From Mesorhizobium huakuii (GTDB taxonomy: Bacteria > Pseudomonadota > Alphaproteobacteria > Rhizobiales > Rhizobiaceae): a stretch of DNA of 64,000 bases. The stretch spans positions 1,980,001 through 2,044,000 of the forward strand of contig NZ_CP050296.1 in NCBI RefSeq assembly GCF_014189455.1. Direction: 5' to 3'. The translations under genes and the position numbers were made by a program. Shown here piece by piece: positions 47,452 through 51,473 of the stretch; position 1 is the first letter of the stretch; each line of letters starts with the position of its first letter. The notes beneath the pieces were generated by a model. The model made no database searches. It was not told the origin of the DNA and saw only the letters and a list, made by a program, of their open reading frames with translations.

Positions 47452-47504
47452 TGGTGCCCCTAGCCGGGATCGAACCAGCACTCCTTGCGGAACTCGATTT
47501 TGAG
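47452..47504 (-). pseudogene. 3' half of a disrupted tRNA-Leu(CAA) gene
   Basis: Read on the minus strand, this runs from the anticodon loop CTCAAAA through the anticodon stem TCGAG, variable arm, T arm and acceptor stem TAGGGGC to the encoded CCA. The matching 5' half is at 51435-51473. Together, counting the loop once, they make an 85-base tRNA with perfect acceptor (GCCCCTA/TAGGGGC) and anticodon (CTCGA/TCGAG) stems. Confidence 0.93.
47498..47504. repeat. Left attachment core
   Basis: TTTTGAG, identical to 51435-51441; with flanks it is an imperfect TCGnTTTTGAGnC repeat. On the minus strand it is the tRNA anticodon loop CTCAAAA. Confidence 0.8.
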
Positions 47505-47512
47505 ACTAGCGA

Positions 47513-47526
47513 TGCCACTGGCGGCA
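47513..47526 (+). repeat. Arm-type integrase site candidate, copy 1
   Basis: TGCCACTGGCGGCA, 8 bp inside the left core, is close to the two identical copies at 47561-47575 and 51298-51312. Confidence 0.4.
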
Positions 47527-47560
47527 GTGAGGGATTTCAAGGACTTAGCCGGAGGGGCAT

Positions 47561-47575
47561 CTGCCACTGGTGGCG
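47561..47575 (+). repeat. Arm-type integrase site candidate, copy 2
   Basis: CTGCCACTGGTGGCG occurs here and again at 51298-51312 in the same orientation near the other end of the element, as arm sites flanking attP would. Confidence 0.5.
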
Positions 47576-47577
47576 GA

Positions 47578-47739
47578 CTAGACCAAGAGGCCGAAGCCTA
47601 TCAGGGCGAACACGAAGAGGGCCAGGAGGAGGAGCTGGAAGGAGAGAGGCCAGGCCTCGTGTTCCTCCAGGCGCTTGTCCATCTGGCGGGCGAAGTGGGC
47701 CAGCTCCTCGGCGCGATCTCGGTCTGTGGTTGACTGCAT
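47578..47739 (-). CDS. Small membrane protein of the prophage remnant
   Basis: This 53-residue product starts at an ATG preceded by GGAGACC at seven bases. The N-terminal 33 residues are charged and helical (TTDRDRAEELAHFARQMDKR), and the last 20 form one membrane helix (FQLLLLALFVFALIGFGLLV). It lies between the tRNA-Leu and the left attachment core. Phages carry such proteins as holins, superinfection-exclusion or signal-anchor proteins; the sequence does not decide. Confidence 0.6.
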   Translation of the reverse strand: MQSTTDRDRAEELAHFARQMDKRLEEHEAWPLSFQLLLLALFVFALIGFGLLV

Positions 47740-47772
47740 GATGAGGTCTCCGTTATAGCCCGTGATGGTAAT

Positions 47773-47857
47773 GCCCCTTTGGCGGAATTGGTAGACGCGC
47801 CGGACTCAAAATCCGGTTCCTCACGGAGTTCCGGTTCGACCCCGGAAGGGGGCACCA
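47773..47857 (+). tRNA. tRNA-Leu(CAA), intact, carried by the prophage remnant
   Basis: The 85-base gene has acceptor stem GCCCCTT, D arm, anticodon CAA inside ACTCAAAA with a CCGGA/TCCGG stem, a long variable arm, T loop TTCGACC and an encoded CCA. It has the same anticodon as the split chromosomal gene but differs in the acceptor, anticodon and variable arms, so it is not a copy of it. It overlaps the antisense end of the integrase remnant. It probably replaces the lost host tRNA. Confidence 0.93.
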
Positions 47858-48635
47858 CCGACCTTCCGAAGTCCCATCCCGTAGCAGATGCCGTAGGCGA
47901 TCCGCTTCCACTTGGGGTCATCCCAGTTGGCCCTGGCGTGGTCCAGGATGCGGTCCATGAGGTGGTTCCGCATGGCGGCGGCATCGGACCAGTACCGCCT
48001 GGGCAGCTTCTCCATCATACAGATGAAGTCGATGAGGTCTGCGAACATGGCGTCTGTGTAGGAAGACAGCGGGTCACGCAGCCAGGTGCTCACCCGGTCC
48101 TGGTCCTCGGGGCGCAGCCACCACTTCTCCACTATGCGGGTTGCCTCACGCGGTATCGATAGGACGATCTTGCAGAGGGGAGGCGTCTGCTTGTGGGCGA
48201 TCTCATTGACCACGTGGAAGTGGGAGAGCTGCTGGTTGATGAAGGAGGGTGAGTTGTCGGCCTCGCGCAGCCGCTTGACGTAGGCATGGAGGTCGGCGCT
48301 GGTGATCAGGTCCAGGTCGTACTTCCCCAGGCTCTCCAGGAAGTAGACCATGCGCCAGAGGCAGGGCTCGACAGACTTGGCCGATCTCATGCCATGCCAA
48401 TGGGTCTCCAGCGCGATGCGGGCTGCCTCGCGGAGGGTACCTGTCCGGTGCTTGGGCTGCCGGTATTCCTGGGTGTCGGCGTGACGGTAGGCTTCGAGGG
48501 GTTCGGCCAGGGGGTCCTGGTTTGCGGGCACGGGCCACATGCCATACGCGGAGAGAGCTGCCTCGATCTCCTGCTCCAGGGCTTCAGCCGCTTCCCGTGT
48601 GGTCGCGGCCTTTCTGATGCGGTGTGCTCGTAGCT
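47821..48635 (-). pseudogene. Tyrosine integrase remnant, fused to phage RNA polymerase
   Basis: Downstream of the polymerase sequence the same frame becomes an integrase: RKAATTREAAEALEQEIEAAL looks like the end of the arm-binding domain, residues TLREAARIALETHWHG to INQQLSHFHVVNEIA form the SAM-like core-binding domain, and the catalytic domain begins and stops soon after GICYGMGLRK, where the Arg (47866-47868) fits the first catalytic Arg. Nine bases later the frame runs antisense into the tRNA-Leu. The second His-Arg box and the Tyr are missing, so it cannot recombine DNA. Confidence 0.82.
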
Positions 48636-50752
48636 GGAGCCTCTGACCATCCAGCTTCGTCTCGATCCGGTACTCCTCCTCCGTGGCGTAGAAGTGCCTG
48701 ACGTAGAAGCCAGCCGGTGTCCACCATGCCAGGGCCTTCCCACTCCTCGACGCAATGGCGCAGTTGTGCTGTATCCAGTGCATCACCTCGACCGCCCTGA
48801 CGACTACCGCCTTGACCGCCTTGAGGAGGAGGTCCACCAGGAGGTTGAGTGCGTCCTTGCGTTGGTCCCTGGGGATCACGGCACCATCCTTGTCGTGCTT
48901 CTTGAGCCACGCCAGGGTGTACCGATAGTAGGCGCTCCTGGTCCCCCCCGTAAGGCAGGATCATGACCGGCCTCTTGGCTACCTCCCGAGGTACCTTGTC
49001 CCCGAAGAGGCGGCCCCACATGCGGACGAAGGGGTTGAGGGGCTGATCGTCCAGGGCTTGCTGCACGATGTTGCCCACGTCCATGTAGATATCCCTGGGC
49101 CGGTTACCCGGTACCAGGTTCACGGCGCGGCCACCCTCCTCGTCCCGCACCATGGCGGAGAGATGCTGAATGCCGTTGCATGTGCCATCCACCCGGATAG
49201 GCAGCGAGGAGATCATCCCAGGACCTTCATCCAGGTAGCGGACCCACTCGAAGATGGCAGCCAGGCATTGCCACGGGTCCTCCTCCTCGGCCCATAGGCG
49301 ATTGTCCAGGGGGTCCGCCGCGATCTGCCGCCAGCGGGCCTCCCGGTCCTTCACCCACTTGATGCGGTCGTAGAAGTTCTCCTTGTCCACCCCGTGGACG
49401 TTGGCCAGGTGGATTGCCAGCCATTGCTCGTCGTCCTCCTCGACGGGCTTCCCCTTGGCGAAGGTGAGGAGACCCCGGTCCAGGTCCCGGCCCTGGGGCG
49501 ATAGGTCGGACACGATGGAGTACATGCGGCCACGGAAGTCCAGGTGATGCGGGAAGAAGAACTCCGGCTCGTCTGCCAGCCTCCGGGCCAGCTTGAGGGT
49601 GCGGCGCTGGGCCAGGAACTTGGAGACCCTGGTGGCATTGTCCGCATGGATGTCGCTGGCGATCTTGGCCCACTCCCGGTACTCGTCGGTCCCCTTGATG
49701 GCACCCTCTGGCATGTCTGGAGGGTCGATCTTCTCCTGGCGGATGATGCCGGCGATGGCGAGGTCCTTGTCCCAGATGGTCTCGGCCACTTCGAGTACCC
49801 TGGTGTTGATCGCCCAGGGTGACCGCTGCACGTAGTTGACCGCCGAGTAGACCTCCGGCATGTCCAGGGCTTCGAACTCCTCTAGGGCGACCTGGCGCTG
49901 CTCCTCGTGGTTGGCCTTGAAGCGGATGAGGACGGGCGACTTGACGAAGGGCGTATGGTAGCCCCCTCCCCGAGGACCCTCCCAGTCGAGCGGAGGGATG
50001 AGGGTCGGGGCGAATGCCGGCATGTGGAGAAGCTCATCGTCCATCGCGTTGGCGATCCACTCCGCCAGCTCGTTGTCTTCCATGAGGACGGCGGGGCGCT
50101 GTGCCCAGGCACCACCCTTGATCCGGTAGGGCTCCCAGGCAGGGTCCGGTACGATATGGAAGCGCTGGGTGCTCTCGATCACCAGGTCCAGCATCGTGAG
50201 GCCTACGCGCTCCCGCTCGGTGGTCGTCCAGTCCAGCCAGCCCAGCTCGTCGTGCTTGGACTTGTTGAAGATGGCGATGGTGGCGCGGCGCTGGTGGATG
50301 CTGGTGGACTTCCTGGCCTGGAAGCGGGCCTGGAGTTCCTGCCAGTCCTTGGGGTCGCTCTCCTTCCAGTGCTGCATCCGCGCCTCATGCTCGCAGTTGG
50401 TGCCGATCTCCATGGCAATGGACAGGATGTTCCGGCGCTCCATTCCCAGCATACGGAGGACCGCCTTGAGGGCGACCATGGCGGCGGTGTCCGGGTGCAA
50501 TTGCTGTAGGGGTCCCAATGCAATAGACTTCGGTCCACGGCGGGGGGTGTTGATCCACTTCTGGAGGGCCTCGGACAGGGGGAGGACCCATTCATGGAGG
50601 AGGCTGCGGTGGGGTCGCATACCACCCAGGTTATGCCGCTCGCGGGCCTTCGTTATGCGGTCCCTCATCCGCTCCTTACCGGTCTCCATCATCTCTTCCT
50701 CGAAGGCGACCTGGGCGTCCCAGCGGTCATGAAGGTATGCCGGTTGGTTCAT
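48620..50752 (-). pseudogene. T7-like single-subunit RNA polymerase, truncated and frameshifted
   Basis: Phage RNA polymerases of this family transcribe phage genes from their own promoters. From 50752 the protein shows the HHLDFRGRMYSIVSD motif, catalytic motif A RVDGTCNGIQHLSAM (Asp near residue 522) with EEGGRAVNLVP, and motif B VAKRPVMILPYGGTR. The frame breaks in a G7 run (48943-48949); with six G it continues as SAYYRYTLAWLKKHD, and through AVEVMHWIQ and TPAGFYVRHFY to about DGQRLQLRA, where the integrase begins. The last 120 or so residues, with the HDSFG motif C and its Asp, are missing. Arg AGG codons are common here and rare in nearby chromosomal genes. Confidence 0.92.
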
Positions 50753-50949
50753 GCGTACTCCTTGGAAAGCTCGTTGTACTCGACCTGGGTGAGGCTATGG
50801 ATGCGGTACCTGGTCGGCCCGATGCGGGCATAGAGGACGCACTGGTCCGGTATCCTGGTCTCCGCTCCTGACAGTGCTGGCACCAGGTCGATCTCAATAA
50901 GCCCCCGCGAGAGGGCGTCGTTGATGAGGGTCGTGAAGAGGGATGTCAT
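50749..50949 (-). CDS. Small phage early protein, upstream of RNA polymerase
   Basis: This 66-residue product (MTSLFTTLINDALSRGLI at its start) is soluble, with a beta-rich second half (CVLYARIGPTRYRIHS). I do not recognise a family. Its start overlaps the previous gene's stop and its stop overlaps the polymerase start, both by ATGA, so it belongs to one translationally coupled set. Small early genes before the polymerase are usual in T7-like phages. Confidence 0.65.
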   Translation of the reverse strand: MTSLFTTLINDALSRGLIEIDLVPALSGAETRIPDQCVLYARIGPTRYRIHSLTQVEYNELSKEYA

Positions 50950-51122
50950 TGGACCACCTTCTCCTTGCCGTTCGGCTGGAAGTGCTCCGCAAAGACCCGG
51001 ACCAGCTTGACCGATAGGTCGGCCATGATGGCTCGCTGGTGGGGTTTCTGGCTGCGGAGCTTACGCAGTAGTGCTGCTTCGGTCTCACGGTCGAACTGCT
51101 CGATGAACGATGGCTTTTCCAT
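50946..51122 (-). CDS. Small charged phage early protein
   Basis: This 58-residue, highly charged helical protein (EQFDRETEAALLRKLRSQ, then KLVRVFAEHF) starts at an ATG at 51122 that shares one base with the stop of the upstream gene (TAATG). Its stop overlaps the next start. A longer start at 51197 is unlikely given this overlap. Family unknown. Confidence 0.6.
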   Translation of the reverse strand: MEKPSFIEQFDRETEAALLRKLRSQKPHQRAIMADLSVKLVRVFAEHFQPNGKEKVVQ

Positions 51123-51370
51123 TAGTCGCTGATCCTCGTCTGTTCGCGGATGATGGTCCCCGTGAAGGGACACTGGCGGGTCTCGATCCTCCACCATCTC
51201 CCCAGGTCATCGACCCCGTGGAAGCGGTAGAGGAGCTTCATGGTCTTGAAGTTCTCGGCGGTTGTCCGGTGGGCTGCCGGCCACTGCTTTTTGGTGCCTG
51301 CCACTGGTGGCGCGGAGGGGGCACATTTACTCGACACTCTGTGCAGAAGCGTAGTGATGGCGGAAAGCAT
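51122..51370 (-). CDS. Small phage early protein, first gene of the coupled set
   Basis: The frame gives 82 residues from the ATG at 51370, or 39 from the ATG at 51241 (MKLLYRFHGVDDLGRWWRIE). The part before 51241 overlaps the arm-type repeat and reads like non-coding DNA, but an AAAGG stands before 51370, so I leave the start open. The C-terminal part with GRWWRIETRQCPFTG looks like a small DNA- or protein-binding domain. No family recognised. Confidence 0.5.
   Translation of the reverse strand: MLSAITTLLHRVSSKCAPSAPPVAGTKKQWPAAHRTTAENFKTMKLLYRFHGVDDLGRWWRIETRQCPFTGTIIREQTRISD
51298..51312 (+). repeat. Arm-type integrase site candidate, copy 3
   Basis: CTGCCACTGGTGGCG, identical to 47561-47575, 122 bp inside the right core. 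Confidence 0.5.
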
Positions 51371-51434
51371 GAAGCCTTGCCTTTCATGGTGTTGAGAGGT
51401 GGACTGTGTGCTGGGAGGTAGGTTGGGTAGTCGC

Positions 51435-51441
51435 TTTTGAG
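51435..51441. repeat. Right attachment core
   Basis: TTTTGAG, identical to 47498-47504, part of the anticodon loop in the 5' half of the split tRNA-Leu. Confidence 0.8.
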
Positions 51442-51473
51442 TCGAGCGCGTCTACCAATTCCGCCATAGGGGC
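51435..51473 (-). pseudogene. 5' half of a disrupted tRNA-Leu(CAA) gene
   Basis: On the minus strand this is the acceptor strand GCCCCTA, the D arm (GGCGGAATTGGTAGACGCG) and the anticodon arm to CTCGACTCAAAA. The sequence then runs into the prophage remnant without restoring the 3' half. Its partner is at 47452-47504. Confidence 0.93.

Follow-up and report, generated by a model that had tools for sequence, protein, structure and literature searches.

A foreign tRNA-Leu(CAA) beside a split host gene: a probable case of tRNA-dependent lysogeny outlived by its tRNA in Mesorhizobium huakuii

Where does a cell obtain its tRNA-Leu(CAA) when its own gene for that tRNA has been cut in two? The question is raised by a 64,000-nucleotide stretch of the Mesorhizobium huakuii chromosome (GCF_014189455.1, contig NZ_CP050296.1, positions 1,980,001 to 2,044,000; hereafter the window), in which a minus-strand tRNA-Leu(CAA) gene lies in two parts on either side of a 3.9-kb insert of phage origin that carries another tRNA-Leu(CAA). 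An earlier note, made from the sequence alone, had proposed that a prophage broke the host gene and replaced it with a copy of its own. This proposal is well supported by the single Leu(CAA) gene left in the genome, by an association across the genus and by related loci elsewhere; very probably, the phage tRNA took over from a host gene broken by integration, as in tRNA-dependent lysogeny, and the virus later decayed.

The 3' part of the host gene occupies 47452-47504 on the minus strand, at the attL side (core 47498-47504), and the 5' part 51435-51473 on the same strand, at the attR side (core 51435-51441); they match the native tRNA at 53/53 and 39/39 positions, respectively (locus L041). 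Common to both is TTTTGAG, which is the entire 7-nt anticodon loop, CTCAAAA. Joined by script, the parts gave a perfect 85-nt tRNA-Leu(CAA) by ARAGORN, as the note had stated, and since the product is identical at 85/85 positions to intact tRNAs of three other genomes (G024, G039, and G051), it is no chance match. The missing half is absent at either end of the insert and neither junction restores the host tRNA, also as claimed; attB lies within the host tRNA at a 7-bp core (at or below about 10 bp), the arrangement that characterizes tRNA-dependent lysogeny.

In the raw window the sole tRNA called by ARAGORN is the intact, 85-nt element-borne tRNA-Leu(CAA) at 47773-47857, on the plus strand, opposite to the host gene. 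It is the complete, non-identical tRNA with the same anticodon that the note had described (72/85 identical to the host tRNA), and its type matches that of the tRNA that was cut. The 8.45-Mb genome (4 contigs) yielded 48 tRNA matches, including 37 short ones that were set aside; ARAGORN was run on ten further sites (nine of at least 80 bases, plus one weak match); the nine were read as Leu (TAA, TAG, CAG, GAG), Ser (four), and Tyr (one), and the weak match received no call. A Leu(CAA) pattern had a single match genome-wide, the element tRNA itself. A second intact chromosomal tRNA-Leu(CAA), which the note had named among the observations that would speak against replacement, was thus found neither among the long tRNA sites read by ARAGORN nor by the genome-wide pattern.

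Comparison with related strains points the same way. We surveyed 146 genomes of the genus, including that of the window (G000), using a 31-base pattern with at most one mismatch rather than the whole tRNA. The pattern was matched in 141 genomes, and the native type, present in 134 of the 146, is the usual state in the genus. It is missing in seven of the 141 (G000, G020, G034, G059, G100, G129, and G134). All seven carry a foreign Leu(CAA), compared to two of the 134 with the native type: in G051 the native gene is intact and the foreign tRNA is just 79 nt long and one base off the pattern, and in G039 a whole foreign tRNA accompanies a whole native-type one. Five genomes had no pattern match; four of these carry a divergent Leu(CAA) adjoining the same DedA-like gene, and the fifth (G072) is a 90% complete draft. 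An intact Leu(CAA) was therefore found in 145 of 146 genomes (141 by pattern plus the four divergent ones), with the draft as the exception.

What brought the foreign tRNA into the window is apparent from the rest of the insert. A minus-strand frame at 48584-50752 encodes the N-terminal and middle part of a single-subunit, T7-like RNA polymerase and ends prematurely (phrog_414, E = 3.1e-161, profile positions 5-596 of 816; Pfam RPOL_N and RNA_pol). It is followed by a fused frame at 47821-48879, on the same strand, that joins a further polymerase piece (phrog_414, profile positions 619-699) to an integrase fragment (phrog_1; homology at 48019-48624). The fragment corresponds to residues 24-225 of its best full-length relative, P0002, at 84% identity; P0002 is a 413-residue protein of Mesorhizobium sp. 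B2-8-3 named as a tyrosine-type recombinase. The catalytic part is missing, and the integrase of the window element looks dead, judging from its sequence. The residues after the fragment resemble a small post-integrase frame in two related loci, L074 (41%) and L076 (39%). Scans of the six larger frames found polymerase and integrase alone, and none of the replication or virion genes of a complete phage; because of this content and its size of 3.9 kb, the insert is taken as the remnant of a T7-like temperate prophage rather than as a prophage. One large and one small internal deletion would be its simplest history.

Related integrases are full-length, and likewise lie beside attachment sites. 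P0002 as a lone query found no relatives in our scans and, within the genus, only the window itself, whereas an alignment of seven integrases (A1) led to four viral contigs and four loci in named genomes; seven of these loci were examined, leaving out L085, a 3-kb piece. Across the order, A1 matched five of 397 genomes, namely the window's own and four others, each having one match broken by an internal stop. Six of the seven loci carry a tRNA-Leu just downstream of the integrase on the opposite strand; the seventh, L083, ends within the integrase. The type is CAA in L073, L074, L076, and L082, and UAG in L075 and L084. In L075 and L076 a polymerase lies beyond the tRNA (50% and 53% identical to that of the window), giving the order integrase, tRNA-Leu, attachment site, polymerase, and the window fits this order if a large deletion is assumed. 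In L073 and L082 the 3' half of a severed host tRNA-Leu(CAA) is present, its core 249 bp past the element tRNA, and a cut half of tRNA-Leu(UAG) was found in L084. The element tRNA is thus of the same type as the cut host tRNA in all three loci where a half was found. With the arrangement shared by relatives, integrase, tRNA-Leu, attachment site, and polymerase appear to form a single module, and the tRNA type follows the target in these 3/3 testable cases. In L076 the letters CTCAAAA stand 69 bp from the tRNA, as expected of a free attachment site, and this locus may be a free phage.

The mechanism is already known, and the window is a further case of it. As excerpts of the cited papers describe it, tRNA-dependent lysogeny was defined and experimentally demonstrated in mycobacteriophages in 2024 (PMC10865867, which cites an earlier report on Lactobacillus prophage Lj965); descriptions of it at tRNA-Leu in rhizobial autographiviruses date from 2021 and 2024. 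Fionnbharth, for which need was shown by deletion of the phage tRNA, and Gaia, with an 8-bp core in tRNA-Leu-CAA, resemble the window in having a core of about 10 bp or less, an unrebuilt host tRNA, and a cognate phage tRNA, but belong to other phage groups and hosts and are active, whereas the window holds a remnant (PMC10865867). The T7-like, temperate Rhizobium phages related to vTRX32-1 (Autographiviridae, genus Paadamvirus; reported in 2021) insert at a 12-bp core within a tRNA-Leu gene, which they thereby disrupt and for which they supply a replacement (PMC8631192). They differ from the window element in that their core, CAGATTTAGGTT, is from a different tRNA-Leu (in the window genome this sequence is found in the TAG tRNA), in that they are intact and inducible, and in that their tRNA lacks the 12-bp core while that of the window retains the 7-nt loop. 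Two S. meliloti prophages that resemble Mesorhizobium phage Lo5R7ANS are described as inactivating tRNA-Leu(UAG) and bringing a functionally similar replacement (PMC11476347, PMC12429752), and the host gene is cut mid-gene, as here. Lo5R7ANS also has integrase, tRNA-Leu(TAG), and polymerase in that order (a comparison of these three features), but its tRNA is UAG rather than CAA, its polymerase is 33% identical to that of the window, and its integrase is unmatched by the relatives of the window integrase. Other parallels are a roseophage whose 13-bp core lies in the tRNA-Thr gene of its host and which has a tRNA-Thr of its own (PMC11288001), and T7-like cyanophages with 39-bp sites in tRNA-Leu (PMC8776855). 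Of interest here are an exchanged tRNA that has outlived its virus, plausibly locked in with the remnant, and elements of a second class that use the same site.

The first class comprises the window element and that of G129. Their foreign tRNAs agree at 79/85 positions, and an alignment of the 3' half with its phage-side arm reaches 81% across 136 columns; in G129 the 5' host half is gone and a transposase is present. The second class consists of the elements of G020, G034, G134, G059, and G100, which share the cut in the anticodon loop, an unrebuilt host tRNA, and a tRNA-Leu(CAA) of their own (62-66/85 identical to that of the window); the element of G039 is also counted here. In this class the foreign tRNA has the same orientation as the host gene. 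Its distance past the 5' half is 140-157 bp in G020, G034, G059, G134, and G039, but 8.7 kb in G100. Beside the 3' half, G020 and G034 encode an integrase with PF13356 and PF00589 (Arm-DNA-bind_3 and Phage_integrase), a layout that we take to be "P4-like," and G134 an integrase 61% identical to that of G020. The host halves are 68 kb apart in G134, 3.9 kb apart in G059 (which has no match to either integrase), and on separate contigs in G020 and G034; the 3' half was not found in G100. Most proteins between the halves were judged by eye and have a metabolic look. Among the few that were scanned (eight in all), which include a flavin monooxygenase-like protein (G134) and a chromate transporter (G100), none was a phage gene, and second-class elements are apparently not phages. 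No report of islands that replace a tRNA in this way was seen among the papers listed by exact-word matching in one open library (10 of 1,641 in one case).

Our reading of the window is therefore as follows. Using its tyrosine integrase, a T7-like temperate phage would have entered the only tRNA-Leu(CAA) gene of the host at the 7-bp anticodon loop. The sequence common to phage and chromosome would be little more than that loop, so the tRNA is restored at neither junction, and its role would pass to the tRNA-Leu(CAA) that the phage has between its integrase and its attachment site. Later deletions would have removed most of the phage, fused polymerase and integrase, and taken away the catalytic part of the latter. 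Excision would then no longer be available to the element, and the foreign tRNA would stay as the cell's Leu(CAA). We infer that this tRNA is expressed and needed, how much of the phage was lost, and in what order these events took place. The note's further claim, that the phage ties the host to itself, holds only in part: a precisely excised prophage would leave the host gene whole again, and a working one therefore holds the cell against imprecise deletion only. In the window a lock is plausible, since so little of the integrase remains (residues 24-225 against a 413-residue relative).

Several observations weigh against replacement as the explanation. The Fisher exact value for the association of foreign and missing native type (1.9e-10) ignores the relatedness of genomes and elements; L074, L075, and L076 yielded no cut host half; a strict promoter scan of the window found none; and the disused parts of the host gene (together 85 nt) are as unmutated as the phage tRNA. 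For this last reason the intactness of the phage tRNA in this genome is no evidence of selection, and the note's argument that the tRNA stayed intact while phage genes decayed, as if needed, is weakened accordingly; the association between genomes (7/7 vs. 2/134) is the better evidence. The genome also has a tRNA-Leu(UAA), which might read UUG, so that need for the element tRNA is less than proven.

This last point lends itself to a different explanation, in which the phage tRNA serves lytic growth, as codon supply or escape from tRNA-cutting defences, the split is tolerated through wobble reading of UUG by tRNA-Leu(UAA), and replacement is incidental. Such roles for phage tRNAs are widely discussed, according to PMC10865867. 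We consider this explanation improbable, and several results speak against it: the tRNA type equals the cut host type in 3/3 loci, all seven pattern-matched genomes that lack the native type have a foreign one, an intact Leu(CAA) was found in all genomes except one incomplete draft, the tRNA is likewise carried by the second class of element, whose integrases differ, and TTG makes up 10 per 1000 codons in 35 frames of the window that lie outside the element. The possibility that the tRNA halves are misassembled or match by coincidence, for which we found no supporting point, can be set aside almost entirely, as the same arrangement occurs in other species, in both named-genome and viral contigs, and the window lies inside a 7.1-Mb contig.

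Replacement by the phage tRNA also requires that it be functional and expressed. The stems of six first-class CAA tRNAs covary (126/126 cells paired, with 14 two-sided changes; 36-51% paired in sliding controls), which speaks for tRNA function in the phages. Joining of the host halves in trans would be unnecessary, because a complete tRNA is present. As the window element tRNA is inverted relative to the host gene, it would need a promoter of its own; a weak candidate lies at 47730-47759 on the plus strand (TTGACT, 18 nt, TATAGC, 13 nt before the tRNA; uncorrected shuffle value 0.04). A loose scan of eight first-class tRNAs gave uncorrected shuffle values of 0.027-0.060 in six and 0.95-0.98 in two, the best sites of G129 and L074 being 34-35 nt upstream of the tRNA, and values of 0.69-0.98 for eight second-class tRNAs. 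Promoter evidence for the element tRNA is thus weak. In the second class except G100, where the tRNA follows closely on the same strand, read-through from the host promoter side would be possible.

Taken together, T7-like phages and unrelated islands with presumably P4-like integrases may repeatedly break tRNA-Leu(CAA) in this genus (seven of 146 genomes), each time providing a foreign copy, loss of the integrase then acting as a ratchet that makes the exchange irreversible and the core tRNA gene permanently foreign; we give this generalization an even chance. If true, species would exchange core tRNA genes by way of mobile elements. After tRNA-dependent lysogeny and decay of the phage, a core translation gene can stay foreign, and with a second element class at the same site in the same genus, reversibility versus accumulation of exchanges becomes testable by comparison of species.

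Searches for a close deposited phage yielded no acceptable candidate: polymerases reached only about 33%, the fused frame had no match, and P0004 had one integrase at 26%. Polymerase relatives in three genomes of the genus (31-33% by tblastn; listed at 34-35%) had no tRNA-Leu in the stretch seen and were taken as other phages. Directly behind the tRNA-Leu of phage Lo5R7ANS lie two genes with the annotation tRNA splicing ligase (L086, 8569-10050). A motif like GGCTAAGTNNTTGAAA, with repeats around it, lies about 30-50 bp from the core in the window (47505-47580), L051, L073, and L076, less clearly in L082, and possibly marks candidate integrase arm sites.

The insert contains four more small frames, all on the minus strand. 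One of 53 aa at 47578-47739, between the element tRNA and attL, has no family that we could find. At the attR side of the polymerase, a frame of 82 aa (51122-51370), also with no family found, has a relative before the polymerase in L076 (45% over 55 residues). Two overlapping frames of 66 and 83 aa (50749-51197), before the polymerase, have no family and no relative in the seven integrase loci.

Some other genomes show variations on the arrangement. A second foreign tRNA-Leu(CAA) occurs in G134 (L067, 14883-14967) and G020 (L068, 10267-10351), each beside a fragmentary second integrase of the second class, and islands may be stacked there in tandem, each with its own tRNA. In G039 (L053, 6536-6620, 16451-16535, and 16682-16714), the whole native-type tRNA has about 74 bp of upstream sequence like that of the window host, and a displaced 33-nt 5' half adjoins a foreign tRNA; perhaps there were two elements, one of which rebuilt the gene. 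The small-genome relatives G012, G029, G030, and G130 (L117-L119 and L121) are those with the strongly divergent Leu(CAA) beside the DedA-like gene, either an old exchange or plain divergence. G030 further has a tRNA-Leu(UAG) and a second tRNA-Leu(CAA) (L130, 4846-4930 and 7887-7971) 3 kb apart on opposite strands, possibly another such element.

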